From: Siphonodentalium dalli
Lineage: Eukaryota > Mollusca > Scaphopoda > Gadilida > Siphonodentaliidae
Assembly: GCA_032622095.1 (NCBI GenBank)
Contig: CP136062.1
Coordinates: forward strand, 6,758,001 to 6,822,000
DNA: 64,000 bases
Reading direction: 5' to 3'
This document shows, piece after piece, positions 949 to 64,000 of the stretch (within the stretch, counting starts at the first letter, position 1; each line of letters opens with the position of its first letter). The position numbers and the translations under genes were made by a program. A model generated the notes under the pieces. The model made no database searches, was not told the DNA's origin, and was given only the letters and a program-made list of their open reading frames with translations.

Positions 949-999
949 AACACAAAGCATCTAACGACCGTGACCAAGAAATCTAGACCTCTCGAGCAG

Positions 1000-2240
1000 A
1001 GAAGTTATCGGCCTTCTACATTTACAATGTGACAACTACACACACAACTGCGATGACATTGAAAGTGGAAGTATCCAAGGATAAGCCACGATTTTGAATC
1101 AAAATCAAACAGTGCTTGATATTATTGATATAATTTTTTACTTGCGATTTTGACGTGAGCTACATCCTACGATGGAAATTATTCCACTTGCGATTCAATC
1201 ATGGTCGCCTTAATGTACGTTCAGACGACCATGATTCAATCGTAAGTGGAGGATTCGAACCCGACGAGATCGTGGATACCGGTAGTTTGTTCAGACGATT
1301 GCGATGTCGCGTACATTATGGTATCGTAGGTTGTTCCTAAAGCATGCGATTGACTACCCTACTGTCATTTCCAGCTACGAACGATTTTTACATACACACG
1401 ACTGCGATTACGCCGCAAGTGGAGATAACCAAGAATACGCCACAATTTCGCATCTAAAATCAAACAGAGCTTGATATTATTTTATGACCTATGATTTTGA
1501 CGTGGGCATGCACAGTCCAGCTACAAGTTACTTCCTACGACGGAAATCTGTCGATTTACGATTGTATCGTGGTCGTCTGAACGTACACTTAATGCAATGA
1601 TTCATTGATTGTTGTTGACATCTAATCAACGATTGCTGACTGATTATCAGCAAAGAAAGATCACCACGTAGAACTGTGAACAGAATCATGAGAATGATAA
1701 TACCACATGACATGGTCATGATGCGTTGATGGTGCATCGAAGTTTTCTGTTGTTTTCATTTGCAAAATTGTCATCACGTTAAAAGTATCTATGCATAGAA
1801 TAATGGAGTTCACAAACATAGCTTACCTGCTTTTCTCAGTTGGTGTGTTCAGTTTATGCTGATATGGTAATATTTCTATCACATAACATGCATATTCTTC
1901 GACGTCCTGTTCGCGAATTATTTCTGGGGCAGGACTTGGCACTTTAGAAGGGGTCCGACTAGTCAACAAGTATTCGATTACCTTGGAATTTGCAGTTATT
2001 TTGTGTCGTTAGTGAACGTTCAGACGACCACGATACAATCGTAATAGAAGGAAGTGGGGCCTCGACGAGATCATGGATAGATTGGGTGTCATCGTACATG
2101 AGTCATGATATCATAGGTTGTTCGTAAATCATGTTGACTACCCTGCGATCTTTTCAGGCATATTTTTTTTACGTACACAAGACTGCGACTACATCTAGTA
2201 CATGGCAAGTGGGGCTAGCGATTACGAATACGTGGCAAGT
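1000..2240. repeat. Dispersed repeat family with internal hairpins
   Basis: Blocks around 960-1140, 1320-1490, 1985-2110 and 2110-2240 share phrases such as gttgttc(c/g)taa, gcgattgactaccct, acacacgactgcgat and aaatcaaacag(a/t)gcttgatatta. A related copy lies in opposite orientation at about 39470-39690. Arms 1183-1207 and 1226-1250 form a 25-bp hairpin with two mismatches. No coding sequence was recognised, so this looks like an old non-autonomous repeat. Confidence 0.6.
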
Positions 2241-10687: not shown

Positions 10688-10691
10688 CAAC
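10688..10691. repeat. Target-site duplication, left (CAAC)
   Basis: CAAC directly precedes the left LTR and recurs directly after the right LTR (24661-24664). Four-base duplications are usual for gypsy/errantivirus integrases. Confidence 0.85.
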
Positions 10692-11199
10692 TGTCCTATA
10701 ATCGGCCGTAGATCGTCTCTCCACGTTGGGAACACAGGTCCAGACACAGTTTTGTAGATACACAATCTTTTATTGTAACATCAAGAATGCATGGATATAT
10801 ATTTACCACAACAACTTTCACAAAGCTAGCAGGTTGAGAAGTCGCCTGAAGTCTGTCGTGGGGCCAATCAGTCACTTAGAGAATTACAACCGAAAAGCCA
10901 CGACCAAAAGCAAACATACTATTTTATTCCAACTTTCTCCCCAAGTCACATGACTGGTCTCTGATACGATATACTCACAGCCAATTCCAGGCCAGTAACT
11001 TCTTATTCGTTATTCTCTCAGACCAGTGAAGGGGTTTCCACGTGACATTGATCTGTTTCCAAACATATGATTCGATATACTTCTGAACCAGTAAAGTCGT
11101 GGTCCCACACTCTTATTGATCAGTTGGTAATTGGTTTTATTAACCTACTCTACACAGACCTTCAGGCAAATATTAACCCCGACATTCCACTATAGCACA
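10692..11199 (-). repeat. 3' LTR
   Basis: 508 bp, aligned to 24153-24660 with a single difference (T at 11137, G at 24598, plus strand). On the coding strand it begins TGTGCTATA and ends ATAGGACA. A polyadenylation signal AATAAA (coding strand) lies at 10774-10769. The 75-codon open frame inside each LTR is incidental. Confidence 0.95.
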
Positions 11200-11217
11200 C
11201 ACGTCCCTTTTTTTTTC
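11200..11217 (-). other. Polypurine tract
   Basis: On the coding strand, nine As and GGGA (11216-11204) sit immediately upstream of the 3' LTR. This is the expected primer for plus-strand DNA synthesis. Confidence 0.8.
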
Positions 11218-11704: not shown

Positions 11705-14314
11705 TTAATTTCCTAAGAATGGGGCCCTTCTATTCTCGTTATCGATTTTATGTCTGACTTCTTCATCAGATCTGCCCTCTAACTGGGTTCGTTTAATACT
11801 CGCTAATAACGCCGCCAACGGCGATTCCACGGGCACAGGCCTTGGCTCAAGTTTCTTTCTCAAACTGGGAAGATTTATTGAGTTATACGTTAATGGCGGG
11901 AGATTAATTTGAGCCTGTGTAGTTAAAGTTGAACTTGTCCTGGCTGTCAACGGCAACTCGGGTGGAACTATTATGTCACCTCCCAGTTCCAATGGTCCTT
12001 CCAAAGAAGGATATAGTTGACTAAAAGGTTGCATTGGTGGCATCATTAACCCCGCCCCTTCTGACAAGTTATTATTAACTCTGGACTCCACATTCATTCT
12101 AGCCTCATTCTCAACCCTCGATTTAAAATCAAATATAGGGCGATGTCGTCTAGGTGGTTTTCCAGGGTAGTCATTCTTCATTTGGTGTTCTATTCCTGTC
12201 CCTTCAGCCATATCTACGTACGCGGTAGGTGAAGCTGGCGCCGCTGTTGTCTCCTGGACGTGTTCTGTCACCCTGTCATTTTTAAACACCACTAAACTAG
12301 ATTTACCCTTATTCGATTCAGTGCGTGTTTTGTTTAACATACCATTTAGCACTCTTTTACAGAGACGAAATAAGGCCCTTCGAAAACAACATACCAATAA
12401 TATTATGACAATTAATATTACACTTATTGACACTGGGTATGCATTACTTCGAAACCACACTCGGGGCTGAAAAAACTCGGCACCATGTGATACAGAACGC
12501 AGTTCTTCTACTAAGGCATTCATGGGTATCTCTTTAATTTCTTTCAACTTCCCCGGTATTGTTATGTTTTGTAAATTCGAAATCCCTTCCAACACGGGTT
12601 TCCATATTTTCAACTGTACCTCGTGATATTTCGGTAACAATTCATTTTCTACAGCACTTATTAAATTATCCGTGATATTCTCGTTTGAAAAGGCAATTAA
12701 TTTCAAATGTGCCGCTGTCGCCACACATTTACTTGGTAATATGAGAAAATCGATGGGTGGACGTATTATTTTTGTGGACAATTCCGCGCCCGAGTGTCCA
12801 CATGACATGGCAAAATGAATTCGATGTTGTGTCGCTATCGCAAACAGATTTCCCGTGAGTCGGTGTGCATATGGTAACATCATATTCGGCTGAACGACAG
12901 TCGTACACGTACGCGAAATTTGCTCGTCTGTTCCCAAGAACAATGCTACCTCGCAAATTCGGTTAGGATCTGCTCGATAAATTATTCCATTCAAATCACA
13001 AAACGGCATTTGATCCCTCAAACAGATTGCTGTATCCTCTACAAATGTATATTTCGTTTGTCCCACGTCCATAGCCAAATAATTAGCACTCAGTCTGTAA
13101 TTAGCTATCATTGTGTCAAATTTGTGCGGTAATTGTTTATTTGGATAGCCTGTTAATGGATATGGTAAACTGTGCATGCGGTGAATGGTATATTGTTCTC
13201 GGACATCTAATAATGGCACTTGAACGATCAGAATTATTTTCTTATCAGTCAACACTGTATGTACGGATAATTTTTGATAATAAAACCACATTTGTGTGTC
13301 CAAGTCAAATGGCATTTTTAAATAGTTAGGAACTTTTGGCTGCAGTGTTCTCAACGCCAATGATAATTGACTTACGCTAATCACACTTGGTGTTAGTCTC
13401 TGGGCTACCAAAGGATTTAACTGCGTATGCAAGCGCGTTAAATAAATCTTTGCATCCAGTACTTGTTGTGTTATTTCGCGGACTACAAGCTGTAGCCTAC
13501 CAAACATTTGAGTGAAAAATTCCAAATAGGTTATCCGTCTTTCTGATCGTGTTAATCTACTATCTAGTTTCCTTCTGAGATCTTCAAAATTGTCGATTAC
13601 CATATTTAATGTATGTCTATTTTGAATTACACGAGTTTGTGTTATATTAATAACACTTAAGCTTTTCTCCACAACATGTTTTATTCTTCTTTGATTGGTT
13701 TGTAATTCATGTAAGCTGTCTATAATTGGTTCTAAATCATCAGAAGATAACGTTCCAAATAAATAACTGCTAACCGTTCCAATAAAACCAAACGGGGCTC
13801 CACGTTTTTGTCGAGTACGTGTACCAGTATGAAGTTGTTTATATTCTTTAAACTGTTTTATTATATGATCCAATTCACCTTGCACCGTTTCCAATTCACT
13901 AGTTAAACCTTCAAATAATTTTATAAAATTATTCGTTACTTCCATATCCCGCATCGTTTCCTCCGCTAAATATTTATCAAAGTTCTTTTCAACAGTATTT
14001 TGAGTCCCAAACTCCGCTATGTTATGTTCGATATATTTTGCGTTGTAACTATGTTTCACATTTACTTTTGTTATTGACAACTGGGCATTCTCAATGCTTT
14101 TTTCCAAAGACTTCAAAAATGTCTGGAACGGTTGTAAATCTATTACAAATCCAAGATTCCATTTTGCTGAATTCATATAAATCAGTTTCAGCTTTTCAAA
14201 TATAACGTTATGCCTCGCTGTAATAGTCCCACTTGGTTGTTCGGGTTCTAGTTGAACGGTGTTTAATAATGCAAACAGAAGAAGTAGACTTTTTGATTCC
14301 ATCTGAAAAAACAA
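11705..14314 (-). CDS. env: Envelope glycoprotein, baculovirus F / errantivirus Env type
   Basis: An 869-codon frame; the likely start is Met5 (ATG 14302-14300). That ATG directly follows a splice acceptor and gives a good signal peptide (MESKSLLLLFALL..). A furin-type site RQKR (residues 168-171) is followed by a glycine-rich hydrophobic fusion peptide GAPFGFIGTVSSYLFGTL. This is the hallmark spacing of baculovirus F proteins and Drosophila gypsy Env. The N-terminal fragment has helical stretches. A Cys-bearing ectodomain follows, then a membrane anchor at about residues 625-648 with a basic CCFRR boundary and a long (~220 aa) proline-rich cytoplasmic tail. Expected role: type I class fusion glycoprotein mediating entry or cell-to-cell transfer. 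No stop or frameshift was seen. Translation probably needs a spliced subgenomic RNA, since env lies 7 kb downstream of gag. Confidence 0.92.
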   Translation of the reverse strand: MFFQMESKSLLLLFALLNTVQLEPEQPSGTITARHNVIFEKLKLIYMNSAKWNLGFVIDLQPFQTFLKSLEKSIENAQLSITKVNVKHSYNAKYIEHNIAEFGTQNTVEKNFDKYLAEETMRDMEVTNNFIKLFEGLTSELETVQGELDHIIKQFKEYKQLHTGTRTRQKRGAPFGFIGTVSSYLFGTLSSDDLEPIIDSLHELQTNQRRIKHVVEKSLSVINITQTRVIQNRHTLNMVIDNFEDLRRKLDSRLTRSERRITYLEFFTQMFGRLQLVVREITQQVLDAKIYLTRLHTQLNPLVAQRLTPSVISVSQLSLALRTLQPKVPNYLKMPFDLDTQMWFYYQKLSVHTVLTDKKIILIVQVPLLDVREQYTIHRMHSLPYPLTGYPNKQLPHKFDTMIANYRLSANYLAMDVGQTKYTFVEDTAICLRDQMPFCDLNGIIYRADPNRICEVALFLGTDEQISRTCTTVVQPNMMLPYAHRLTGNLFAIATQHRIHFAMSCGHSGAELSTKIIRPPIDFLILPSKCVATAAHLKLIAFSNENITDNLISAVENELLPKYHEVQLKIWKPVLEGISNLQNITIPGKLKEIKEIPMNALVEELRSVSHGAEFFQPRVWFRSNAYPVSISVILIVIILLVCCFRRALFRLCKRVLNGMLNKTRTESNKGKSSLVVFKNDRVTEHVQETTAAPASPTAYVDMAEGTGIEHQMKNDYPGKPPRRHRPIFDFKSRVENEARMNVESRVNNNLSEGAGLMMPPMQPFSQLYPSLEGPLELGGDIIVPPELPLTARTSSTLTTQAQINLPPLTYNSINLPSLRKKLEPRPVPVESPLAALLASIKRTQLEGRSDEEVRHKIDNENRRAPFLGN

Positions 14315-14322
14315 TGAGAATT
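14303..14322 (-). promoter_or_regulatory. Splice acceptor abutting the env start codon
   Basis: Coding strand reads CTCATTGTTTTTTCAG immediately followed by the ATG of env Met5. A pyrimidine tract plus AG at exactly the start codon implies a spliced env mRNA, with 23680 as the candidate donor. Confidence 0.75.
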
Positions 14323-15235
14323 CGTATCAGCTTACTAACCCACTTTTATTTTCAATTTGTTCACTACACGATCAATTCCAACATAAGATTCCATTATTTC
14401 TACACTCGACCAATTTACTTATACTTTCCAATCCATTTCCAATTTGTTTATTCCAATTTGTTTATTTGTTTCCGTTCTTGGTAAATGACTCTGTTATTAA
14501 GCCTTATTTAAGCAGATATCATTCAATTACTCCACCAAATTGTTTACGCTTTTCCATTCCACATTACCATTTACTTACCATAACTTCGTCCGTGATACAT
14601 AGCTCTTCTAAAATCTTATCTACACAGATATACTTTTCAATTATCTGACAAATTTACTTCCATACGAAAACAACTTATCTAGACTTTGCAAACCCATTTA
14701 CAATTTGCAAACCCATTTACAATCTTACCTACTTATAATATTTTTGTGTTATAAATGGCTATTTCTATGGCCTATATATAAGAATTTAATATTCAATTAA
14801 ATCTGACCCACATTACATTCAATTAATTGCTTCTTGTGACAATTTTTCTCGTTTACAATTTTTATCATACCCCCAAAACTCATTAATTTATCCTGTTTTT
14901 CGTTTCGTTAGGACAGGTCAAATATTGTTTTTCCCGAATCAGCACAAAATACACGGATTTGGATCGATACACAAAGACGCCTGTCCTAAACGCCTCCGCT
15001 ACGAGGCTACCCGCTCTCCGTATATCGCTTTGATACACGGATTTCGTGCCCTGGGAAATTCTCCCTTTTTTTCCAACTTGAATGACAAAGCATCCAAGTT
15101 TAGAATGATAGAATTAGTTGGGTTTTTTTTTCTTCTCTCTCTCGCGTTTTATTTGTTTGTTTGTTTGTTTTTCTCAATATTTATATATTGTTTTTATTTT
15201 TTGTTTTCTTTTTATTTAATAATCAGTGAAACTTG
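14315..15235 (-). other. Non-coding spacer between accessory ORF and env
   Basis: AT-rich with simple sequence (TTTG and TTCC-rich tracts near 14440 and 15150 on the plus strand). No gene seen. It would form intron sequence for env mRNA and 3' UTR for the accessory mRNA. Confidence 0.5.
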
Positions 15236-15997
15236 CTATGCCCGCCATTGTTGACCAAGTAACATTGCCACCTGAGCATCCCACATTGTGAGATATTCAG
15301 TCCTATATTCTGAGGGCACAGGAGGGCGAATCAACCCATTATGAAACCACTGTGTGTAGTCTTCATAATAAAGCGGATTCACCTGTGCCCAATAGGTGTC
15401 CATTATCTCTATTAAATGTTGATCAACATTATCTTCGGGTGGGGGAGTTAGGATGATACTCGGTCCAGTCCTAGTATAATGCATCAAACGCCCCATGATC
15501 AAAGGAGATGGGATAGTCCACAAAAATGGAGGTTGAGATTGGTCGTACGTCGGAGGTTGATATGATACGCCATCCCGCGGCGCAAAACACCACTCCGAAC
15601 GGGGACTCTCATTCCCGCTCAGTTCAGTGTCAGCGTCCAATTCCAAATCATCATCAGGGCCTACACCCCAACTCGATGGAACCGGTTCAAGGGGAGGCAT
15701 ATCAGCGAATGGATCCTCGGTATCAGAACTGGAATCTAGATCCCCATTCTGACCCGCGAATCCCGCAATATCAATCCCCAACACCGCCAACCAATCTCCC
15801 TCAATATCCCATTCCTGATCAGGGTCGCTCTCCGCATCCTCCCCGTTCAGCCCGGCCCAACCCTCCACGGGCGGTGGCAAAATATGTTCCGGGGTTATTG
15901 ACAACCAGTCAAAATCCCACCCCGAAACGAGATCAACCTGGGCAATTTGCAACGCCCTGGCCACACAATGCAAGCACAGCATTAGCAAGTAGAACAT
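15236..15997 (-). CDS. Accessory ORF between pol and env, acidic protein, function unknown
   Basis: A 253-aa frame on the element's coding strand. It starts with a hydrophobic stretch (MFYLLMLCLHCVARALQIAQ) that could be a signal peptide or anchor. Residues 50-130 are strongly acidic and rich in Pro/Ser. PPTY at 148-151 matches the PPxY late-domain consensus that binds NEDD4-type WW domains. The C-terminal third is rich in Trp and Tyr (YWAQVNPLYYEDYTQWF). I recognise no family. Its position resembles accessory genes of complex retroviruses, and a splice acceptor candidate lies about 15 nt before its ATG. The opposite strand is also open (15526-16059), but its proline/glutamine-rich product looks like a shadow frame. 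Base composition is less AT-rich than the rest of the element, which supports coding selection or recent capture. Confidence 0.65.
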   Translation of the reverse strand: MFYLLMLCLHCVARALQIAQVDLVSGWDFDWLSITPEHILPPPVEGWAGLNGEDAESDPDQEWDIEGDWLAVLGIDIAGFAGQNGDLDSSSDTEDPFADMPPLEPVPSSWGVGPDDDLELDADTELSGNESPRSEWCFAPRDGVSYQPPTYDQSQPPFLWTIPSPLIMGRLMHYTRTGPSIILTPPPEDNVDQHLIEIMDTYWAQVNPLYYEDYTQWFHNGLIRPPVPSEYRTEYLTMWDAQVAMLLGQQWRA

Positions 15998-16034: not shown

Positions 16035-17332
16035 TGTTTTCTCTTCTGGACAAAACTAAGTTTTAAGGTGACACCTCCCATATCTCATTTTTCTTCCTCG
16101 TCCAATCAACACACAGTACCAATATTTATTGCTTTCTCTGAATTGATTTGGGGACCTTTCATCCCCTAAATCACACCCATTGTGCCTAACTTTAGCCCTA
16201 TAGGGACTCCACACCCTTTCTCGTACACCATAGGAATGTCTCGCATTTTTCCTACAATCTGTTAATTCTTAAACTCAATTTTCCGTTGTATGTTGTAAAT
16301 TTCAGTTGGTATTTCGTGATTTATACTATTCGGTTTCGTAAATTTATCGAAACTTCCGGTATTATCGAAATCCATTCTGTAAATGAACGAAGAGCATTTT
16401 TCACTATCTTTCATTTCACTTTGCCTGTTTATTATAGTGTCTTTTCTTTTAGCATACGGAACACTATTTTTCTTCTAGTTTAACAGACAATTTGCCTCAA
16501 ACCTTTATCACCACTGCTATCGTGATGCGATCCTATATATGCCATACAACTATCACTGCTTATTACAAAAATATGCAGTGTTTTTTGCGCAATTTGAACC
16601 TTGCATGTTGGGAATTGCCATTTTTAGTGTTTTACACTATTCGGCTTCGTAATTTTATCGAAACTTTCGGTATTATCGAAATCCATTATGTAAATGAACG
16701 AACAGTACCTGTTCAGCAACTTTTGGTTCTATATGCCTTTATTTTAGTGACTTTTATTGAGCAATCTGGTCACTAGTTTTCAATTAATTTAACCGATCAT
16801 TGAACTCAAAACCAGCATCACACTGTGTTAATGCGGTGCATCGAATAACCAACGACACGTGTAACAAAAACGCTCTTTATTATATTGGTGGCCTATTTTC
16901 ACTTGTAAAAATATTTTTATTTTGCACATTTTGTATTTTATCACTTGACGGTGACATGTAGAACGATTTTTAAGCGTTTTCTACTTAACACAGCTTAGTT
17001 TAATTCACTTACACGTTATTAAGTGATTATCGAGCCTATGGCCTGAGGTGTATAGACCACTACCAATTGTATTTATAACACCTTTCAATATGACACTTGT
17101 CAACATTCTGTTCCCCTCCTTTAACACCTCTTATGATTTTACACTTTACAGGTTCTGGGCCCTTTATTTTACAATTTACACCTTCACATCTTTATGTTTA
17201 TTGCTCTCTTTTTAACGGCATGTTTTTGCTTATAGCATGTCATACAATGTACACACTCAGACAGAAAATTCGACTTTGTCGCATAGTGTAATCTGATTGT
17301 AACACTGACAACATGAGTTATAACCTGCTTTC
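16035..17332 (-). other. Non-coding spacer downstream of pol, with an internal direct repeat
   Basis: No gene recognised. A ~66-bp segment (ctattcgg-ttcgtaa.. to ..aaatgaacga) occurs at 16326-16391 and again at 16637-16701 with few changes. The remainder is AT-rich. Confidence 0.55.
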
Positions 17333-18433
17333 TTAAAATTCCTGGCTAGACATGTACACCTCATTGTCGTCTGGGTGAGTTATATGTTCTGTATATTGAT
17401 CACTTTGTGCACTCATATCGTCGGACATTACTGTATTTTTATGGCCAGATTCTCGAGGATTAGCTTTTTTCAGCCTTCGTTGAAGTTCACCCAAGGGAAT
17501 AATTTCACTGTCCATGTCCGACGTTTCGCGTTCCATATTTCTAAGTCGGTTTCTAAGCTCACATAAAGGCAAGTCGTCTTCTGAAGCACTATTCTCGATT
17601 GGTCTTTGTATTGTATGTTTATTTATTATATTCTGCATTGGATTTTCTGATTCATCTTCGCTGGACCGAATATCTTCATCGCTATCCGGACAAAGCAATT
17701 GTTGTTGTCTGGTTCGGCGCGTTAATGTCTTTTTTGGTATTTTCCATACTTCGATATTGGCGTGACGTAAATTTCTGCTATGAGACTTGAAAATTTTTCC
17801 AGTTATCAAGTTCTTAATAATAAAAGAAACAGGGCCTTTTTTTTCTAAAATCACGTGATATGGATCCCATTTTAATGACAATTTACCCGATGTTTGTCCA
17901 ATCTTATGGTAGACTTTATCACCGATATTATAATCGACTTCTGTGGTTTTTACTCTCAGCTTCTGTTTTCTTTTAGCAATTTTCATATGATGATGTACCG
18001 CGCGGAAAGCTCTGTGTTGTGCTTGAAGAGTAATCTGGTGCATTTCATCTCCCATATATTTTAGTCTGGGAGCCAAAATGTTATCCAATGGCAAAACCGG
18101 TGGATGTGAATACATTAGTTCAAAACTTGAAGTTTTAGATGAATCTGAAATCATGCATCTATGTGCTAATAATGCTTGTCCCAAAACAAGATCCCATGTT
18201 CGCTGATTTCCTTCCATAATTTTGGACAGTATGTCATTTAAAACCTTGTGAGATCTTTCATTTCTACTATTAGACTGAGGTGAATAATAATTTGTTAAAA
18301 CCAATTTTATTCCTAGATCTTTACATACTTCTTTAAAATTATTTGAAGTGAATTCCTTCGCATTATCGCTCAAAATCTGTATCGGCACGCTAAATCTTGG
18401 TATAATATCTTCCAAAAGACAGTGAATAATCAA
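17333..18433 (-). CDS. pol: Pol, integrase C-terminal part (second and third catalytic residues, GPY/F-like region)
   Basis: A 366-codon frame, out of phase with the upstream pol frame. It holds the second catalytic Asp (ILSDNAKEF) and the Glu of NSRNERSHKVL with exactly 35 residues between, the D,D35E spacing of retroviral integrases. Next comes a basic linker and a GPY/F-like module (KLSLKWDPYHVI..GPVSFIIK). The acidic C-terminal tail contains a twice-repeated motif (LPLCELRNRLR and IPLGELQRRLK), possibly a host-factor or targeting tail. There is no natural start: it is the continuation of pol after a frameshift near 18463. Unless that shift is a sequencing error, this copy cannot make complete integrase. 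Confidence 0.9.
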   Translation of the reverse strand: MIIHCLLEDIIPRFSVPIQILSDNAKEFTSNNFKEVCKDLGIKLVLTNYYSPQSNSRNERSHKVLNDILSKIMEGNQRTWDLVLGQALLAHRCMISDSSKTSSFELMYSHPPVLPLDNILAPRLKYMGDEMHQITLQAQHRAFRAVHHHMKIAKRKQKLRVKTTEVDYNIGDKVYHKIGQTSGKLSLKWDPYHVILEKKGPVSFIIKNLITGKIFKSHSRNLRHANIEVWKIPKKTLTRRTRQQQLLCPDSDEDIRSSEDESENPMQNIINKHTIQRPIENSASEDDLPLCELRNRLRNMERETSDMDSEIIPLGELQRRLKKANPRESGHKNTVMSDDMSAQSDQYTEHITHPDDNEVYMSSQEF

Positions 18434-21400
18434 ATTCGTGCTTTTGCTGGTTATTGGAAATGACTATCCAACCACTATACAAACAAAACCAAGTTAACAA
18501 ATATTTATTATTTGCCAATGTCAGCGGAAATGGCCCAGAAATATCGATACTCCATTTTGCGCCTGTAAAAGCTGGCATGTCAGTGTCTTGTAATGGAGGT
18601 CTCAGTTTAACCAGATTCCGTGATTTACAAATTACACACTTCTCACAATGTGCATATATACACTTATACATATTTTTCCAGTAATATTTTCGACGAATTA
18701 TTTGGAATGTGTGTTCAATTCCAAAATGTCCCAGTTTATCATGATATTGAGTTAGTACCTTTTCTTGCAAATGACTCGGTATATATAATCTCAACATGGG
18801 GTCATCGTCTGCATTTGATATGTAATATAAAACATCTTCTATAAGTAAATGTTTATTAGTAATTGATGGGGAAGGATTATTACTTTTATATGATGCAATG
18901 ACCTCCTGAATTTCTGAGTCTTTCCCTTGTTCAGTTTTCATATTAAATTGAGCGACTTCTTCATTTGATAATTCACCTTGGGGTAATGGATCATTGGTTT
19001 CCACTTTACATTCTGCAAATTTCGAGAAATTTGGAATTTGATTTGAATTAATCACATTTATTTGTAAATTATTATCATTTATCTCGATGTCAGACAAATG
19101 TGCCTCAGTTTCTATTGAGTCAGGAATTCTACTCAACAAATCGGCTACACTATTCTCACTTCCTGGCAGATATTCTATAGTGCAATTATAGGCTGATAAA
19201 CACAACATCCACCTCTGAATTTTCGGATTATTATATTGAGTGGTTAATAAATATTTTAAAGGTTGATGATCCATTTTAATAGTGAAGGTGGCTCCATTCA
19301 AATAATGATCAAGCTTTTTAAGAGCATAAAATATTGCATATGCTTCTTTTTCAATGACTGACATTTTGCACAGTGTAGGACTCAATTTTGCTGACAGAAA
19401 ATAGATTGGCTTTTCATTCCTACATTGTGGTATATTTATTCCTTCATTTTGATCACAATTTTGAACTAACACCGCCCCAATCGCATTTTGACTACTATCG
19501 GTATACAATGTATATGGTTTATTCAAATCTGGATAAGCCAGTTGAGGTATGACAACTAGACTTTCTTTTAAATATTCAAATGCCTCTTGGCACTGTTTAT
19601 CCCATTTGAACTTGGCATATTTCTTAGTTAAATTAATCAAAGGGATAGATATTTCACTAAAATTCGGGAGAAACCGTCGATAGTACGACATCGCGCCAAT
19701 AAATCCTCTAACGCCCCTAATCGTCGTGGGCGCTATCATGTTTTTCAATGCTTTAATCTTGTTAGGATCTGGTGCTATCCCTGATTCATTTACTATAAAA
19801 CCCAAATACTTTGTCTCTGATTTGAAAAATGAACACTTCTTTAATTTCAGTTTGATATTATGTTCCCTTAGCCTTTGAAATACCTGCTTTACATGAGTCA
19901 CGTGATTAGACATACAATCACTGAAAATCAGTATATCATCAATATAGTTGATAACGTTAGTTAACCCTTTTAAAACAATCGCCATCAACTCACTGTACGC
20001 GCTCGGAGCGTTCTTTAACCCATATGCAGTGCGATTAAAAAACCAGTTACCATAGAAACAAGTAAATGTAGTCTTTTCTCTGTCTTTTTCATTGATAGGC
20101 ATGGCAAAATAACCTTGTCTTGCGTCCAATAGACTGAATACTTTGGATCCCTTTAACTCAGAAATTATATCATCAATTATAGGCAAGGGATAACAAATTG
20201 TCTTTGTTATCTTATTTAGAGATCGAAAATCACAAACAAATCTCCATGTACCATCAGTTTTAGGAATCATAAAACAGGCATTTGACCACGGACTATTAGA
20301 TTTGGTTATTATTCCTGCATTTTCCATTGAATCAATAGCATCTCTATATAGCTGTCTTCGGTGCAAAGGTACTCTATACGGTTTTTGTGAGACCGGTTCA
20401 TGATTTCCAGTGTCTATATTCATTGTATATGTTGGTGTTTCCCCCAATTGTCTATCGTTTGCAGCAAAAATATCCTGATTTTTCAATACCAATTCAGTGA
20501 CAACTTTTAAATGCTCAGATGGGGCTTGAATTTCATTCACATCGACACGCGCTTCCCCCATTTCAAAAGAATTAGAAATTTGATTTATTTCTGCTTCTTG
20601 CATAGGACATATTTTCCCCACAACACAGCCACGTTTCAAATTGTAATGCCTGTCAGTTTGATTAATGATTTTAACAGGAATACAATCGCTATTAGTTGTC
20701 GTTATTGACTCTTCCAACGTGAGTCCGGGGTGTTCACTGAGAAATCCCTGCTCCGTACAAGTCGCCATTATGAATGGAGATTTAAACATTTTTGCTCCTC
20801 CAATAATTTTAGCCGAACAAATGGCCCCTGTCCTAGGCTTTAATTTACAATTAGCCTTCAGGCGTATTAAAGATGCGATATGGATATCTGGTACGAGACC
20901 CACTAACTGATTTTTAATTTTCAAGGCTCCCAAATCAAAATACATTCTTACTCCATTGTCTCTTAAAAAATCGCGTCCAAGTATAAGTGTCCTGTTTAAA
21001 TTCTTAGTTACATATAACCTATGAATAACCTTTAGTTTATTTATTTTAAAATCGAGGTTTATATAACCTATTATTTCTAACGTATCATTGCTCGCCGAGG
21101 TCACAGTGGCTTGTTTCTTAATAAGTTTGGGTCGTTCTTGTATTTTCTCATACAAGTTTATATTAATTAGTGAACAATCCGCTCCACTATCCACCAAAGC
21201 TCTTACCCTTTGTTTTCTAATCATTATTACAATGGAACATGGTACATGTTCCTCTAATAGTTTCGCAGTGTCTCCAGGATAATTGTAATTTGTGCTACTA
21301 ATTTTAAATTCAGGTGACTTTGTTACACAATTCATATTAATGTTTTTGTGTTTCATAAATACCCTACTTTTATTGTTCATTTCTTGTTTATGAGTGATAG

Positions 21401-21746
21401 TTTGTTTCTTTTGCTCAATTATCTTTTTCGGATTTGTTTTATCGAGTTTGATTTTTCCTGGTTCACTAGGCAACTTCTTCTGTTGAATTTTTCCTCTCTT
21501 AAAATCATTTTTACCTGATTTTATTCCAGAATACAATGGTGGCCCATTTGGATATTTTATTTTGTTATTTTTAATTGCATTACTAGTTCTCCCATTTGAT
21601 ATACGAGATGTCTTATCATCTTGTAAACTATTTGATTTATTCATTCGACATTTACCTGACTCAAAACATTTAATTTGCTCAATTATTCTAGCTTGAAAAT
21701 TTTCTATTAATTTCATTTGATTTATTTCGTTCCATTTTTCGGCCAC
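18390..21746 (-). CDS. pol: Pol: protease, reverse transcriptase, RNase H, integrase N-terminal part
   Basis: An 1118-codon frame whose first in-frame start is GTG; the frame is open back through the gag end, so it is made as Gag-Pol by -1 frameshifting. Domain order: a lysine-rich N terminus (1-150); aspartic protease with VDSGAD (186-189); reverse transcriptase with YIDD at about 600; RNase H with LYTDSSQNAIGAV at about 750 and the KMDHQPLKYL strand; integrase HHCC zinc-binding region (H..GIEHTF to CEKCVICK, about 1000-1035); and the first catalytic Asp in WSIDISGPF at about 1065. Sequence resembling the family continues to GWI near 18468, then departs into a short unrelated tail ending at 18390. 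Catalytic motifs for protease, RT and RNase H all look intact. Confidence 0.95.
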   Translation of the reverse strand: MAEKWNEINQMKLIENFQARIIEQIKCFESGKCRMNKSNSLQDDKTSRISNGRTSNAIKNNKIKYPNGPPLYSGIKSGKNDFKRGKIQQKKLPSEPGKIKLDKTNPKKIIEQKKQTITHKQEMNNKSRVFMKHKNINMNCVTKSPEFKISSTNYNYPGDTAKLLEEHVPCSIVIMIRKQRVRALVDSGADCSLININLYEKIQERPKLIKKQATVTSASNDTLEIIGYINLDFKINKLKVIHRLYVTKNLNRTLILGRDFLRDNGVRMYFDLGALKIKNQLVGLVPDIHIASLIRLKANCKLKPRTGAICSAKIIGGAKMFKSPFIMATCTEQGFLSEHPGLTLEESITTTNSDCIPVKIINQTDRHYNLKRGCVVGKICPMQEAEINQISNSFEMGEARVDVNEIQAPSEHLKVVTELVLKNQDIFAANDRQLGETPTYTMNIDTGNHEPVSQKPYRVPLHRRQLYRDAIDSMENAGIITKSNSPWSNACFMIPKTDGTWRFVCDFRSLNKITKTICYPLPIIDDIISELKGSKVFSLLDARQGYFAMPINEKDREKTTFTCFYGNWFFNRTAYGLKNAPSAYSELMAIVLKGLTNVINYIDDILIFSDCMSNHVTHVKQVFQRLREHNIKLKLKKCSFFKSETKYLGFIVNESGIAPDPNKIKALKNMIAPTTIRGVRGFIGAMSYYRRFLPNFSEISIPLINLTKKYAKFKWDKQCQEAFEYLKESLVVIPQLAYPDLNKPYTLYTDSSQNAIGAVLVQNCDQNEGINIPQCRNEKPIYFLSAKLSPTLCKMSVIEKEAYAIFYALKKLDHYLNGATFTIKMDHQPLKYLLTTQYNNPKIQRWMLCLSAYNCTIEYLPGSENSVADLLSRIPDSIETEAHLSDIEINDNNLQINVINSNQIPNFSKFAECKVETNDPLPQGELSNEEVAQFNMKTEQGKDSEIQEVIASYKSNNPSPSITNKHLLIEDVLYYISNADDDPMLRLYIPSHLQEKVLTQYHDKLGHFGIEHTFQIIRRKYYWKNMYKCIYAHCEKCVICKSRNLVKLRPPLQDTDMPAFTGAKWSIDISGPFPLTLANNKYLLTWFCLYSGWIVISNNQQKHEFDYSLSFGRYYTKI
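18455..18470 (-). other. Frameshift lesion within integrase
   Basis: Family-like sequence leaves one frame at about 18463 and resumes in another, between the first and second catalytic Asp. No slippery heptamer or stem marks it as programmed, so it reads as an inactivating indel or an assembly error. Confidence 0.8.
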
Positions 21747-21773
21747 CTTAAAAATGGAACCCTTTAGTTTAAA
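21729..21773 (-). promoter_or_regulatory. Programmed -1 frameshift signal at the gag-pol junction
   Basis: Coding strand: the slippery heptamer TTTAAAC (21773-21767) is formed by the last two gag codons (TTA AAC) and is followed at once by the gag TAA. After the 6-nt spacer TAAAGG comes a perfect 11-bp stem (GTTCCATTTTT, 21760-21750, with AAAAATGGAAC, 21739-21729) and a 10-nt loop. A one-base backward slip on the heptamer enters exactly the pol frame. Heptamer, spacer length and downstream stem are all canonical. Confidence 0.88.
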
Positions 21774-23026
21774 TGTTTCTTTCGTCTTTCATCTGCCTGA
21801 CGCAGCCAACACCAGTCTATAGAATGTCCCCCTTTTTGACAATATTCACACCGAAATGGCGTCCCGGGGCGTTGATTCCTTACAAAACCCTGTGAATTTG
21901 AAGGATTGACTGGCCTTACTGTTTCATTTCTCATTTGTAATGCCCTCACATTATGTTGTGGTGGCGACCCTCTATTTGGCCCCGACATAACGCGTGGCCC
22001 CTGGTACCTATTTTGAGCTTGCACTGGGCGTGGTCCCTGATACCTATTTTGAGTTTGCACTGGGCGTGGTTCCTGATACCTATTTGGTTGGGATCTCTGA
22101 AATCTTTCAAAACCCCTTCTTCGAACATGATCAATTTCCATCGCGATAGGTGTTTCAGTATTAACTGCATATCCTTGAGCCCTATCATATGTACCCTCAC
22201 CATACCTTAGTTTATATCGTTTATGTAAATTAGCTTCCCTCATTGCATACTCTACCGCCCTATCTAACTGTGGATGATTTTCCCTCATTAATTTAAACCT
22301 CAATGAATCATTGTATAATCCATCTACAAAATATCCCACCATTTGCATTTCAATGGCAGCATCTTGGATATGATCCTCAAATGCATCTGTAGCTATCTCC
22401 CGTAATCGTTCGGAATATACCTGAATACTTTCCTCTTTCTTTTGCCTAATGTTGCGTAAAATGGATAGAGCATGTTGATTGTCTGCTATATCACCATAAC
22501 GGGTCCTCAATTCCCTTTTAAACTCATCCCAAGTTATTCTTAGCACCCCATGCCTCGTATTTTGTTTCATAAATCTTTGTACAAATTCTGCTACTGGTCC
22601 CCGTGCCGTTTGATTAGCTAATTTAATGTGATCTTCATCAGCGGCGTCCATCGCCAAAGAATACCTTTCTATTTGTGATATCCAGTCTTTGAACCCTTTT
22701 GGGTCACCTGAATATTTTCCTATTATCGTAGCCGCGCCCAAAGCTGCCTGAACAGATGTTGACTGCCTTGAGGCCTCAGATTGTTGAACCACTGCATTTT
22801 TAAATAAATGCATTTGTTCAGTCAATTGTCCCAACACACTATTCATATTCTGATCATTTCCCTGGGAAATTTGTTCATATGAAGGTGGTCGCTCATTTGG
22901 GTTTAAATCCCTATGTCTATTTATCTCTTCTTCTCTACGCTGTCGTATTAAATTCTCATACTCCATCAGTCTTATTTCTGACTCATTTCCAAAATCTAAA
23001 CTAGGTATCTCTGGTGCTTGAGCCAT
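21764..23026 (-). CDS. gag: Gag structural polyprotein
   Basis: A 420-aa protein starting at an ATG with A at -3 and G at +4. PPSY at residues 47-50 is a PPxY late domain, expected to recruit NEDD4-type ligases and ESCRT for budding. The central region (about 95-280: YSGDPKGFKDWISQIERY.., WDEFKRELRTRYG.., YSERLREIA..) is the retrotransposon-gag capsid domain. Then come three NRYQ(G/E)PRPVQ-type basic repeats (about 315-355), likely nucleic-acid binding. A single CCHC zinc knuckle, CEYCQKGGHSIDWC (spacing CX2CX4HX4C), lies near residues 393-406. No lesions. It sits 31 nt downstream of ORF0 and overlaps the frameshift site feeding pol. Confidence 0.93.
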   Translation of the reverse strand: MAQAPEIPSLDFGNESEIRLMEYENLIRQRREEEINRHRDLNPNERPPSYEQISQGNDQNMNSVLGQLTEQMHLFKNAVVQQSEASRQSTSVQAALGAATIIGKYSGDPKGFKDWISQIERYSLAMDAADEDHIKLANQTARGPVAEFVQRFMKQNTRHGVLRITWDEFKRELRTRYGDIADNQHALSILRNIRQKKEESIQVYSERLREIATDAFEDHIQDAAIEMQMVGYFVDGLYNDSLRFKLMRENHPQLDRAVEYAMREANLHKRYKLRYGEGTYDRAQGYAVNTETPIAMEIDHVRRRGFERFQRSQPNRYQEPRPVQTQNRYQGPRPVQAQNRYQGPRVMSGPNRGSPPQHNVRALQMRNETVRPVNPSNSQGFVRNQRPGTPFRCEYCQKGGHSIDWCWLRQADERRKKHLN

Positions 23027-23057: not shown

Positions 23058-23612
23058 TTATCTTTCCACTGTTACTGTGTCCTCATCTATAAACATTACT
23101 GCCTCTTCACTTTGTCCAATTTCGCGTGCTTTATTTTTAATTAATGTTTTAAGATGAATTAGACATCCATATGGTGTCGGATATCCCAAAAACGGTAAAC
23201 GGGCCACAATTCTATTGACAGTTAATGTTGGAAAATCTGCAAATGGTGTTTTAATCGATGTCCAAATTGTATATCTGTCAAAAACACAATTATCAAATTT
23301 ATTAAAAATTTGTATCTCTTGCAAAACCCTTATTCTATTGCAATGTACCTCTAATTTAATTTGCACGACTCGTTTAAATACTCTCGGCGATACTGTGCTA
23401 ATGTGTTCTTTACAAAAAGTACAATACTCTACAAATTTAAATGGTGCGTCGTACCCAATCAATGTATCTTGTATCACTGGTACTCGAGGTGGGGGATTTA
23501 GCGATTCTTTAAATGGAGTTCTATCGTTTTCAAACTCTGGTCCTGACTCCACTATTTCTGTAAGGGACGAAATCCCTGCTGTTAGGGGTACACAAGCGAA
23601 TCTACCAGCCAT
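23058..23612 (-). CDS. ORF0: conserved pre-gag protein of unknown function
   Basis: A 184-aa protein lying between the leader and gag, in a different frame from gag. I recognise no domain. It has a YCTFC pair (62-67), a central strand-rich part, and a conserved core W117..PFADFP(T)L..VNRIVARLPF..C150LIHL. The plus-strand protein at 63229-63720 in the second element shares this core in the same order (FTDYPKLIVNSIVAAIP..CQIHL) and holds the same place just before gag. That co-linearity across diverged elements argues for selection. The start codon has a weak context (T at -3, G at +4) compared with gag, but several other ATGs lie between the two starts. Role unknown: a matrix-like domain supplied separately, an RNA-binding protein or a regulatory factor are all conceivable. 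Confidence 0.8.
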   Translation of the reverse strand: MAGRFACVPLTAGISSLTEIVESGPEFENDRTPFKESLNPPPRVPVIQDTLIGYDAPFKFVEYCTFCKEHISTVSPRVFKRVVQIKLEVHCNRIRVLQEIQIFNKFDNCVFDRYTIWTSIKTPFADFPTLTVNRIVARLPFLGYPTPYGCLIHLKTLIKNKAREIGQSEEAVMFIDEDTVTVER

Positions 23613-23673: not shown

Positions 23674-23680
23674 ACTCACC
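23674..23680 (-). promoter_or_regulatory. Candidate major splice donor in the leader
   Basis: Coding strand ATAGG|GTGAGTACC, a near-consensus donor between the 5' LTR and ORF0, placed where retroviral major donors lie. Joining it to the acceptors at 14303 or about 16012 would give env and accessory mRNAs. Confidence 0.65.
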
Positions 23681-24126
23681 CTATCACTACCACAGAACTG
23701 TTCAAACAACTGGAATTGTCAGTATTTTGAAATGTCAGCTGGGCACCACACCTCGAAATGTCAGATGTATACACTGATGTTCTTGGGTTTCGTTCGGAAC
23801 TGAATTGTTCACAGAATGTTTCTTCCTTGATTTTCTTCTGAACTGAATTGTTCACAGATTGTTCTGAAATTTTCTTCTTGGACTTTCTTCTGAACTGTTT
23901 TCTTCTTCTAAACTGAATGTTTATTTTCGTGAATTTTCTTTTTTCACAGAACCTTCCTGGCTTTTCTTCTGAACTAAATTTTTCTCGTAGAATGTTCTGA
24001 AATTTTCTTCTTGGTCTTTCTTCTGAACTGTATTATTCACAGAATGTTCTGATTTTATCTTCTTCCTTCTTGGTTCTTCTACCGAATTTTTGTTTTCCAT
24101 TTTCCTAATTCACCATAATTAGGAAT
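23681..24126 (-). repeat. Leader with degenerate tandem repeats
   Basis: The untranslated leader contains several imperfect copies of a 40-50 bp unit (plus-strand phrases ttcttctgaactgaa, ttgttcacagaatgttctg, aattttcttcttgg) between about 23790 and 24090. No coding sequence. It probably holds packaging or structural RNA signals. Confidence 0.6.
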
Positions 24127-24143
24127 GCTGCACACGGCAACCA
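24127..24143 (-). other. Primer-binding-site candidate
   Basis: Coding strand TGGTTGCCGTGTGCAGC begins 9 nt inside the 5' LTR. The TGG start fits a tRNA CCA end, but I could not match the tRNA. The second element has TGGTACCGTG at the same 9-nt offset. Confidence 0.5.
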
Positions 24144-24152
24144 AAAAACATG

Positions 24153-24660
24153 TGTCCTATAATCGGCCGTAGATCGTCTCTCCACGTTGGGAACACAGGT
24201 CCAGACACAGTTTTGTAGATACACAATCTTTTATTGTAACATCAAGAATGCATGGATATATATTTACCACAACAACTTTCACAAAGCTAGCAGGTTGAGA
24301 AGTCGCCTGAAGTCTGTCGTGGGGCCAATCAGTCACTTAGAGAATTACAACCGAAAAGCCACGACCAAAAGCAAACATACTATTTTATTCCAACTTTCTC
24401 CCCAAGTCACATGACTGGTCTCTGATACGATATACTCACAGCCAATTCCAGGCCAGTAACTTCTTATTCGTTATTCTCTCAGACCAGTGAAGGGGTTTCC
24501 ACGTGACATTGATCTGTTTCCAAACATATGATTCGATATACTTCTGAACCAGTAAAGTCGTGGTCCCACACTCTTATTGATCAGTTGGTAATTGGTTGTA
24601 TTAACCTACTCTACACAGACCTTCAGGCAAATATTAACCCCGACATTCCACTATAGCACA
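24153..24660 (-). repeat. 5' LTR
   Basis: 508 bp and, by my reading, one base different from the 3' LTR. As the 5' LTR it carries the promoter for the genomic RNA. Confidence 0.95.
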
Positions 24661-24664
24661 CAAC
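24661..24664. repeat. Target-site duplication, right (CAAC)
   Basis: Matches CAAC at 10688-10691. Confidence 0.85.
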
Positions 24665-32982: not shown

Positions 32983-33533
32983 CTAGTTTTGATTGTTATT
33001 AATGTTAATTGTGACACTGCAGTTACTTGAGAACACAGGTGTGAAATTGAAGCTTCCCTCTGGTTTCACACATAGAGCTTTAGATACAGGTTCAGTATCA
33101 ACATTTTCTTCCGAGAAATCATTTATCAGCTCAGATATGGGGACATTCTTCTTCGTCATCAGCGCATTGTTCAGTGTTCCAGATATCTCTCGTTTCTGTC
33201 TGTCAGTAACATGTTGTGAATAGTGTTTGAGACTGGTTTCACTTCGATGTCCTGATATGCGCATAATACGGCGATCACTTATTCCAGCGCGATCCATAAT
33301 AGTGATGCTTGTTGCTCGAATAGAATGGTTGGTGTATTCCCGGGATAACTTCCCTGCTTTGGAAATAGTGCACATGAGAACTCCAAGGGGATTTTTCCCG
33401 ACAGGTGCAGCACAGTACCACTCAGCATCGTCGTCTATGAATGAATCGCGTGGTCGCTGCCACAAACAGTCAATGTCACCATTTAGCTTTGATATATATT
33501 TCCTGAACGAGGCCACAGGACATTGTGCTTCTC
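32983..33533 (-). CDS. Crypton-type tyrosine recombinase, C-terminal catalytic exon
   Basis: Begins after a TTTTCAG acceptor and reads EAQCPVASFRKYISKLN.., WQRPRDSF.., then YTNHSIRATSITIMDRAG..RRIMRISGHRSETSLKHYS. H-x-x-R in HSIR, the His of SGH and the Tyr of KHYS are the catalytic residues of tyrosine recombinases. The surroundings are those of the Crypton-derived (DUF3504-like) family seen in many invertebrate genomes and in vertebrate KIAA1958/QRICH1/ZMYM relatives. The family cuts and joins DNA through a covalent 3'-phosphotyrosine. The C-terminal ~60 residues are low-complexity (Ser/Asn-rich). The exon joins in frame to the middle exon at 33972. The exon is open, but the upstream stop at 34242-34240 makes the gene as a whole defective. 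Confidence 0.88.
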
Positions 33534-41942: not shown

Positions 41943-42880
41943 ACAATTTCCTTTGGCGCAGACTACAGGTTGTACCTTTGGTCTAATCTTTATGAAATTT
42001 GTCATGAATGTTCACATTGACATGTAGATGGGAACGAATCATTGTGGAGTCATTCGGCCAAAAAACATGGCCGCTGGCGGCCATCTTAGATTTCAAAATT
42101 AAATCCATTGGCGCGGTCCACAGGTAGTACTGTTCGTCTGATCATCATGAAATTTGTCATGGATTTTAACAATGACAAGTAGATGGGAACGAGTAATTTT
42201 GGGGTCATTCGGCCAAAAAACATGGTCGCCAGCAGCCATCTTGGATTTTACTCTTTGTATGACTAAATCCTTTAGCACGGACTACAGGTCGTACCTTTAA
42301 TCTGATTATCATAAAATTTGTCATGGCTGTTGAAATTGGAATGTAAATGGGAATGAGTCATTTTGGGGTTATTCGGACAAAAAACATGGCCGCCAGCAGC
42401 CATCTTGGATTTCAAAATTTAATCCATTAGCATGGGCCACAGGTCGTACTGTTCGTCTGATCATCATGACATTTGTCATGGATGTTAATATTGACATGTA
42501 GATGGGAACGACTAATTTTGGGGTCATTTGGCCAAAAAACATGGTCGCCAGCAGCCATCTTGGATTTTACTCTTTGTATGACTAAATTCTTTAGCATGGG
42601 CTACATGCCTTACCTTTAGTCTGATCATCATAAAATTTGTCATGAATGTTAATAATGACATCGAGATGGGAACGAGTCATTTTTTGGGTCATTCGGCTAA
42701 AAAACATGGCCGCAGCAGCCATCTTGGATTTTACTCTTTGTATGACTAAATTCTTTAGCATGGGCTACAGGGCGTACCTTTAGTCTGATCGTCATAAAAT
42801 TTGTCATGGATGTTAACGATGACATGTAGATGGGAACGACTCATGGCCAGCAGCCATCTTGGATTTTACTTTTCCCTTCA
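41943..42880. repeat. Tandem array, about 160-bp unit, six copies
   Basis: Units begin near 41943, 42103, 42263, 42421, 42583 and 42747 with tt-gc--g-ctacagg-cgtacc. They continue through atcatcataaaatttgtcatg and gtagatgggaacga to gccgccagcagccatcttgg. A diverged single copy lies inverted at about 55739-55835. Confidence 0.85.
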
Positions 42881-58460: not shown

Positions 58461-58463
58461 CAG

Positions 58464-62080: not shown

Positions 62081-62537
62081 ATGTGAGATAACTACCCATT
62101 ATAATCTCACAACTTGATTCAAACTATACGAATGTCCCAATATATAAAACCCCAAACTCAGATATTCGTGTTCGGTTCTCGAAACCTCACACGTCTTAAT
62201 CTCAGCGAAGATATACACACAATGAAGATGGCTCCCAAATATGGTCAAGGGAAATGCCCATAACGAAGGAACCAATCCCGATGTGTATTGCCAAACGCCT
62301 CATCTAATATGCGTCCCAAATAGTATATAAGAGACAACCACATCCCATCACCTCATGCTTTCACTAGACTCATCTCCTCCCTAGATCATATCCAGGCATC
62401 ATTCACACCAGGCATCACCCATTCGGGGACATCATTTCGCGGCGACTATTGATCATTATATTTGTACACACTGCATATCTTATTCACAACATAATAAAGA
62501 CTTGTACCTACTATATCTATGTGTTCATTACCTCACA
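62079..62537 (+). repeat. Candidate 5' LTR of a second retroelement (left edge uncertain)
   Basis: Promoter-like TATATAAG at 62324-62331, polyadenylation signal AATAAA at 62493-62498 and a CCTCACA end at 62531-62537, followed 9 nt later by a TGG primer-site candidate. A TGTGAG start at 62079 is only a guess, because the partner LTR lies outside the window. Confidence 0.45.
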
Positions 62538-62546
62538 TAGTATTAA

Positions 62547-63136: not shown

Positions 63137-63143
63137 TGGTGAG
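63137..63143 (+). promoter_or_regulatory. Candidate major splice donor of the second element
   Basis: AATTG|GTGAGTGACC, 86 nt before the ORF0 start, paralleling GG|GTGAGT about 62 nt before ORF0 in the first element. Confidence 0.6.
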
Positions 63144-63228: not shown

Positions 63229-63720
63229 ATGGACACATCACCTGATTCTACTACACCTACACTACCTACCCATCCTACTACAATACATGCTTCAAACGAT
63301 CAGCCCATACCACCCACCTCTTACAAACAACATTCAGTTCTTAATTTTAAAACTTACTGTAGATACGCTTTACCCCACCAAATAACTTTATCGCCACAAC
63401 TCATTAAATATTGCAATCCCATTCGCATTGATATAACGCAAGATACAATCCGCTTATACGTGCGTTGTATGATTACAAATAACTACTCAGGACATACACT
63501 AGATTCTTGGAACGAGTGGCATACATTTCCGGCTCATTTTACGGATTATCCAAAACTTATTGTCAACTCTATAGTTGCGGCAATTCCCATAAAACATCCT
63601 AATAAATCACCTGAATCGTGTCAAATACATCTGAATCGCATAATACACCGCCACGGCACTTGGAAAAAAATACAACATATTTCGCACACATACCATAGAT
63701 CCCAAAACAGACACCGTTAA
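63229..63720 (+). CDS. ORF0 homologue of the second element
   Basis: 163 aa from ATG 63229; the open frame extends 31 codons further upstream, but those codons overlap the donor and are hydrophobic, T-rich and unlike the partner. After a Thr/Pro-rich N terminus it carries FKTYCRYA.., SP.LIKYC, an IRI strand, then W..HFTDYPKLIVNSIVAAIPI..CQIHLNRII. This matches the YC, SP, W, F-D-P-L, VN-IVA-P and C-IHL positions of the 23058-23612 protein. Low overall identity with conserved spacing indicates long divergence under constraint. It ends 14 nt before the gag ATG. Confidence 0.75.
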   Translation: MDTSPDSTTPTLPTHPTTIHASNDQPIPPTSYKQHSVLNFKTYCRYALPHQITLSPQLIKYCNPIRIDITQDTIRLYVRCMITNNYSGHTLDSWNEWHTFPAHFTDYPKLIVNSIVAAIPIKHPNKSPESCQIHLNRIIHRHGTWKKIQHISHTYHRSQNRHR

Positions 63721-63734
63721 TCCTTAATAACATA

Positions 63735-64000
63735 ATGGAGTCCCCACCTCCGCAGAGCAGCGATTATTTTCATCCAAGCCAAAATTATCAGCATCACCTT
63801 GAATTAAACAGGGAAATGGACCGATCAACCGCAAGATCCCCCACACAGACATTACTAATGAAATGGGCAAAGATGCTCAAAACTTGCTATTGTCACGGCT
63901 TACCCATGAAATTAGCCATTTCACTAGTTCTATCCGCGACCAGACTGAAAGTTTAAAAACACAAACAACAATGACAGCACTGTTGGGGATGAATTCCATT
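63735..64000 (+). pseudogene. gag: Gag N terminus of the second element, with a frame change, cut by the window edge
   Basis: Starts at ATG 63735 (MESPPPQSSDYFHPSQ..) 14 nt after ORF0. From about 63845, gag-like sequence continues in another frame (NLLLSRLTHEISHF.., QTTMTALLGMNSI), comparable to the VLGQLTEQMHLF.. and VQAALGAATI region of the first gag. The switch lies at a run of five Cs (63838-63842), so a one-base homopolymer indel is likely, either real or an assembly error. The capsid region lies beyond the window. Confidence 0.65.

Follow-up and report, generated by a model that had tools for sequence, protein, structure and literature searches.

The accessory genes of vertebrate retroviruses have been studied well, those of enveloped gypsy elements much less. 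Several LTR elements that encode an extra protein, mostly from an open reading frame (ORF) ahead of gag, have been described. In the MDG1 group of Drosophila Ty3/gypsy elements (412, Mdg1 and Stalker), which are reported to lack env, two ORFs with low dN/dS lie upstream of gag: sORF1, of ~110 aa, has a predicted helix-turn-helix and in 412 yields a product found in a subnuclear compartment, and sORF2, of ~70 aa, is a membrane protein resembling the FAST fusogens (PMC11952523). In WDSV, an env-bearing epsilonretrovirus, the accessory ORF Orf C lies directly 5′ of gag with a gap of 7 bp; no dedicated transcript is reported, translation is presumed to occur from the full-length genomic RNA, and the protein localises to mitochondria and has a link with apoptosis (PMC3185748). 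The Cer1 element of C. elegans encodes CERV, a nuclear protein of 517 aa with no obvious homology reported outside nematodes, which is produced from a spliced mRNA of five exons, the first three of them in the gag frame, and which exports unspliced RNA from the nucleus (PMC10309623). In plant Tat elements with an ORF before gag, this ORF is an additional RNase H, and in errantiviruses, the insect endogenous retroviruses such as ZAM and gypsy, the upstream exon belongs to the env message.

Two pre-gag genes, here termed ORF0, are present in the window analysed, a 64,000-nt stretch of contig CP136062.1 of Siphonodentalium dalli, each ahead of the gag gene of a retroelement. ORF0_1 (P0002, 184 aa) occupies 23058..23612 on the minus strand (23612 to 23058) and ORF0_2 (P0001, 163 aa) occupies 63229..63720 on the plus strand; both are supported by their translations, their mutual similarity, their codon usage and their copies elsewhere in the genome. 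A preliminary description of this DNA had placed both proteins at the right coordinates, ORF0_1 being on the minus strand (translation of the plus strand of 23058..23612 meets 8 stops), and the order leader, ORF0, gag that it proposed is real in both elements. The ordered residues that it listed, YC..SP..W..F-D-P-L-VN-IVA--P..C-IHL, are present in both proteins and were recovered in 0 of 20,000 shuffles of ORF0_2. BLASTP aligns the two proteins at 31% identity over 104 aa (E = 9e-16), and their local BLOSUM62 score of 144 is well above the scores of 5000 shuffles (mean 29.1, maximum 60); chance likeness is ruled out by the shuffles of both score and ordered residues. The similar region spans approximately residues 58–160 of ORF0_1, residues 1–57 being without conservation, and when every stop-to-stop frame of 60 codons or more in the window (276 in all) was compared with the two proteins, no frame other than those of ORF0 itself scored above 49 against either. 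ORF0 is also ruled out as an extension of gag, since the ORF0 and gag frames differ in both elements with a stop in between (the gap to gag is 31 nt in element 1 and 14 nt in element 2), and as a non-coding leader, since frame 0 beats the five other frames in codon usage for both genes, the score of ORF0_2 being only -0.04 bits per codon.

Element 1, which harbors ORF0_1, extends on the minus strand from 24660 to 10692 and has the order ORF0, gag, pol, a 253-aa ORF and env, 5′ to 3′, between LTRs. Comparison of the LTR pair delimits a 5′ LTR of 508 nt with TG..CA ends (24153..24660) and a 3′ LTR (10692..11199), with 1 mismatch in 508 sites, and a 4-bp target duplication, GTTG, is found at 24661-24664 and 10688-10691. 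A candidate primer-binding site beginning with TGG was read 9 nt inside the LTR (24126..24143), to which no tRNA was matched, and a polypurine tract, likewise by reading, lies ahead of the 3′ LTR (11202..11216). The gag gene (21764..23026, 420 aa) carries a Retrotrans_gag domain (37.6 bits, over the Pfam cut-off of 24.1), a Ty3_capsid match under its cut-off (24.5 versus 29.1 bits), a CCHC-like knuckle identified by reading, and a PPSY motif. The pol gene (18390..21746) encodes protease, RT, RNase H and the integrase zinc domain according to Pfam, in the order found in Ty3/gypsy (Metaviridae-type) elements, and the integrase (rve) runs on in another reading frame (17333..18433); pol is therefore interrupted at 18390-18433 in this copy, which is otherwise very young as judged by its LTRs. 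Downstream of pol, env (11705..14302, 865 aa) has a signal-peptide-like start and a furin-like RQKR site and belongs to the Baculo_F family (E = 3.1e-17), so that an F-type envelope follows pol, an errantivirus-like feature. The acidic 253-aa ORF between pol and env (15236..15997) has a hydrophobic start and a PPTY motif, and is a candidate second accessory gene, with no match in Pfam or in the family-2 stretches L016 and L050–L053. Local direct repeats were observed at 16286-16810, between pol and this ORF, and recurring GAAGAAAA- and CAGAACATTCTGTGAA-like stretches were read in the leader (23800-24080).

Element 2 lies on the plus strand at the right end of the window. Its 5′ LTR is placed at 62082..62540, with an approximate right end, from the LTR pair of a family-2 copy (L016/L053; 459 nt, 99.6% identical). 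Downstream of ORF0_2, the start of gag is located at 63735..64000, with a frame change early in the window copy; the segment from 63722 matches residues 43–101 of the element 1 gag with a score of 61, and none of 1000 shuffles scored above 47. The window stops at 64000, and the remainder of element 2 therefore lies beyond it. An array of similar units with CGGACACACAGGACCGCATACC was read in the leader of element 2 (62730-62920). A family-2 element at C6:39557191 repeats the family-1 order of ORF0, gag, pol and env between 459-nt LTRs (99.6%); its env is spread over two frames and is 27% identical to the env of element 1. Both ORF0 families are thus LTR elements with gag, pol and an F-type env, the order of these parts being taken from the full-length reading of one element of each family. 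Elsewhere in the window, an ORF at 32983-33516 (minus strand) shows a weak Phage_integrase (tyrosine recombinase) match just under the Pfam cut-off (E = 3.3e-05) and is possibly a remnant of a YR-type transposon, an ORF with an F-box-like domain at 58450-59007 (plus strand) runs into a local repeat array at 58949-59931, and local direct repeats occupy 41949-42844.

A search of the host genome, whose 9 contigs total 2.23 Gb, with ORF0_1 yielded at least 152 matches in two families, one close to ORF0_1, with many degraded copies, and one at 28–31% identity, and a search with ORF0_2 yielded at least 150 matches at 92–100% identity; 150 of 304 and 150 of 335 candidates, respectively, were scored, and the two lists overlap. 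Among the family-2 matches listed, some of them partial, 138 of 150 have no in-frame stop and 12 have one or more. Of the family-2 loci, 20 were retrieved with flanks of kilobase length (L010–L029), and every one of them has a gag relative just downstream on the same strand. At the family-1 loci fetched (L030–L049), gag was matched in 18 of 20; it lies 1.8–2.5 kb beyond ORF0, not adjoining it, in L033 and L034, and no match was found in the flanks of L043 and L049.

Compared with the window copy, family-1 ORF0 has a dN/dS of 0.36 or less in 15 of 20 copies (0.16–0.36 in 14 and 0.00 in L030) and of 0.39–0.75 in the other five (L036, L037, L042, L046 and L049); the window copy enters all 20 comparisons, stop codons were passed over, and any decay since insertion raises the values. 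Four further family-1 pairs gave 0.34, 0.35, 0.39 and, for the alike copies L033/L034, 0.58, and gag in the same copies gave similar values (0.17–0.79, 13 with a value). ORF0 is therefore under selection in family 1. In family 2, polymorphism was counted in 36 sequences (35 loci plus the window copy), of which 32 were gap-free and L026, L027, L028 and L055 were dropped; changes common to copies comprise 3 synonymous and 3 non-synonymous (pN/pS 0.28) and singletons comprise 15 synonymous, 25 non-synonymous and 3 stops (0.47), numbers too sparse to be strong evidence of selection. A crude NG86 comparison of ORF0_1 with ORF0_2 is near saturation (dN 0.83, dS 1.78). The preliminary description had named three outcomes that would speak against its proposal, namely an absence of further homologues beside gag genes, a dN/dS near 1, and an alignment score at the level of shuffled sequences, and none of the three occurred. 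Its separate, unrecognised cistron before gag is supported, with evidence of selective maintenance, in two families whose pol proteins are only 30–35% identical.

Between family 1 and family 2, identity is 33% for gag, 30% and 35% for two pieces of pol, 27% for env and ~31% for ORF0; ORF0 is thus about as conserved as pol. The pol of family 1 is nearer to database pols than to that of family 2: its best 120 hits are 49–54% identical over RT–RNase H, except for one at 39%, and its best full-length alignments reach 45–48%, whereas family-2 pol is 27–39% identical to the same database pols. Named sources of the family-1 hits include the molluscs Haliotis asinina and Patella caerulea, the pseudoscorpion Cordylochernes, and Candidatus Thiodiazotropha assemblies, the last of which are taken for host contamination. 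In a pol tree of 58 tips, for which alternate hits were taken from the 109 that were usable and a partial sequence served as root, family 1 falls within a clade of 55 that lacks family 2 (support 77), with several inner supports of 43–74.

Four other pol groups of the same genome, A–D, set by identity and aligned range among 92 of 4802 pol candidates, have an RT 50–53% identical to that of family 1 (51% for group A and 52% for group D). The list has dozens of pol genes 52–53% identical to family 1, and in many of them the frame is open over more than 1400 codons, which suggests recent amplification in this genome. With a further genome search added (52 of 632 candidates), env lies within a few kb at 5 of the 7 listed places of group A and was not found near groups B–D among the matches listed; nor was an ORF0 match found near groups A–D among those listed, both absences being weak at such coverage. 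For groups A and D, a single copy each was read. In the group A copy (L070), a GGTGAGT donor at 836 is followed 30 nt on by the ATG of a 143-aa candidate ORF (866-1294, plus strand) and by gag (1759-2982), and this ORF has no detectable similarity to ORF0 (hhalign probability 0.3). The group D copy (L071) has gag and pol; the 4.5 kb read from it contain neither GGTGAGT nor GGTAAGT and give no ORF0 match. The suggestion that ORF0 is a lineage-defining component is accordingly doubtful.

These comparisons bear on whether the leader–ORF0 module was inherited from a common ancestor of the two families or exchanged by recombination between two gypsy lineages. Exchange is a possibility to be taken seriously, although we hold it to be the less probable course. 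The closer relationship of family-1 pol to database pols (nearly all of the best 120) and of family-1 RT to groups A–D than to family 2, with which the tree agrees, and the single copies of groups A and D without an ORF0 homologue, are as exchange would predict. However, joint descent predicts that ORF0 should have diverged about as far as gag, pol and env, as is observed; losses in groups A and D would explain the rest, and the supports in the tree are low, including that of the clade without family 2.

The position of ORF0 relative to splice-site-like sequences suggests how it may be expressed. In element 1, a donor-like GG/GTGAGT, a match to the consensus only, has its GT at 23678..23679 (minus strand), 67 nt 5′ of the ORF0_1 ATG, and in element 2 a donor-like G/GTGAGT has its GT at 63139..63140 (plus strand), 90 nt 5′ of the ORF0_2 ATG. 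The sequence GGTGAGT begins 90–93 nt 5′ of ORF0 in 33 of 35 family-2 copies, and it is absent within 140 nt 5′ in 6 of the 10 family-1 copies with the ORF0 start aligned. An acceptor-like tract ending in TTTTTTCAG (14303..14323, minus strand) abuts the env ATG of element 1, and in one family-2 copy an acceptor-like tract is followed, 13 nt on, by an ATG of env. Env would thus be translated from a spliced RNA in which the leader donor upstream of ORF0 is joined to an acceptor that adjoins env or lies shortly ahead of it, and ORF0, gag and pol would be removed together from this message. Located within this predicted intron, ORF0 would be made from unspliced genomic RNA with Gag and Pol, that is, as a "late" product, and not with Env alone. 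It would be the first long coding ORF on that RNA, and gag, which starts 31 or 14 nt downstream in a different frame, would need to be reached by leaky scanning or reinitiation. ORF0_2 contains 3 ATGs including its start, versus 6.9 expected (0.95% of synonymous shuffles are that low), and ORF0_1 shows a weaker deficit, with 5 versus 7.2 (7.6%); two upstream ATGs between donor and ORF0 make translation of ORF0 in element 1 more complicated.

No recognised relative of ORF0 was found: nothing exceeded the cut-off in Pfam (best COPI_assoc, E = 0.19), there was no match in PHROGs, the best PDB sequences were not significant (E = 0.95 and 0.74), and no relative was found in BFVD or in a set of 5.8 billion proteins, which yields 1211 relatives of pol at E ≤ 1e-10. 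Two AlphaFold2 runs on a two-sequence alignment gave low-confidence models (mean pLDDT 53.9 and 53.4), both with three to four long strands arranged as a meander (approximately residues 70–121 of ORF0_1 and 58–101 of ORF0_2); the ORF0_1 model adds two helices, and its first 59 residues have a pLDDT below 50. Comparison of the models with a structure library gave no meaningful match. Kyte-Doolittle hydropathy over 19 residues peaks at 1.11 and 0.87, which gives no sign of a membrane span in either protein. ORF0 thus has the look of a small, soluble protein in which a disordered N-terminus precedes a core rich in beta-strands.

In its position ahead of gag, ORF0 resembles sORF1 and sORF2 of the MDG1 group and Orf C of WDSV, the likeness to each being one of position. 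These precedents and the plant Tat ORF qualify the earlier statement that a cistron ahead of gag is unusual because Ty3/gypsy elements normally begin with gag. ORF0 differs from the MDG1 sORFs in its size (163–184 aa), in being beta-rich in the weak models, and in belonging to env-bearing elements, and it lacks the central transmembrane span of the FAST-like sORF2. Like Orf C, it is a separate ORF 5′ of gag in an env-bearing element; WDSV is a retrovirus, whereas the ORF0 elements are Ty3/gypsy, and genomic-RNA expression of ORF0 is predicted from donor and acceptor positions only. CERV is similarly an extra protein of an LTR element; it derives from a spliced mRNA, whereas unspliced RNA is the predicted source of ORF0. 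ORF0 matches no RNase H model, in contrast to the Tat ORF. It is situated 3′ of the donor, so that splicing is predicted to remove it, whereas the errantivirus env leader peptide lies on the other side of the donor. A pre-gag accessory ORF is therefore a known kind of gene; the ORF0 protein family is unrecognised by the tools used here, the comparison extending to these systems.

Taken as a whole, the explanation that we favor, and to which we give roughly an even chance, is that Ty3/gypsy (Metaviridae-type) elements of an enveloped, retrovirus-like kind carry in ORF0 a true accessory gene, expressed late, whose product would act as a cofactor of Gag or genomic RNA, most plausibly in particle assembly, packaging or trafficking during an infectious, env-bearing cycle. 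Predicted synthesis with Gag from unspliced RNA favors a partner of Gag or genomic RNA first and an antagonist of host defence next, and it is this predicted timing alone that points to assembly. An antagonist directed at RNA silencing, at the piRNA pathway or at some restriction factor, produced alongside Gag and conceivably packaged, is an appreciable though distinctly less probable alternative. Vif of lentiviruses is a packaged host-defence antagonist and offers a parallel. A small soluble accessory protein predicted to come from genomic RNA, with 57 unconserved N-terminal residues in ORF0_1, would suit such a role, as would the dissimilar ORF in the group A slot, which fast turnover would give if that candidate is not a chance ORF. 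The ORF0 core has nevertheless diverged about as far as pol, more slowly than expected for an antagonist, and is similar to no family in the libraries searched (Pfam, PHROGs and PDB).

A regulatory or RNA-export protein, with a role like that of CERV or of the subnuclear sORF1 of the MDG1 group, is unlikely. The predicted env intron implies that unspliced RNA must leave the nucleus, as it does in Cer1 with the aid of CERV (PMC10309623), and sORF1 of 412 provides a pre-gag product in a subnuclear compartment (PMC11952523). However, CERV comes from a spliced mRNA (PMC10309623), and ORF0, being inside the predicted intron, could appear only after unspliced RNA had already been exported, which disfavors a strict Rev- or CERV-like role. 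Least probable is the detached matrix that the preliminary description had envisaged, here taken as a domain of retroviral type that would target Gag to membranes: retroviral matrix is helical, and despite the location of ORF0 before gag in env-bearing elements and the PPxY motifs of gag and the 253-aa ORF, there is no positive evidence for it, both low-confidence models being beta-meanders that do not support a helical bundle, with no meaningful structural match, no fusion to Gag and, by reading, no N-terminal myristoylation motif in either protein.

A wider reading, less likely than not, is offered tentatively. ORF0 may be a protein family not described before, associated with gypsy elements that bear env from a time when their pol genes had yet to diverge to about one-third identity, and the pre-gag site may be a "late accessory" position occupied by varied proteins, as in complex retroviruses. 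A donor precedes the first ORF in three env-bearing families; in two of them this is ORF0, and in the third, group A, represented by a single copy, it is the dissimilar candidate. ORFs of such size arise there anyway, since a 121-aa ORF begins at an ATG at 418 in L070 and a 119-aa ORF at an ATG at 842 in L071, and these chance-sized ORFs in the two stretches read weigh against a dedicated slot and lower the likelihood of this reading. If it is true, enveloped gypsy lineages would keep a dedicated pre-gag position behind the env splice donor. With a high-copy, mostly open ORF0, an env and a fixed donor position, an independent "complex retrovirus" organisation becomes testable in this system, as does the function of pre-gag proteins in enveloped gypsy elements.
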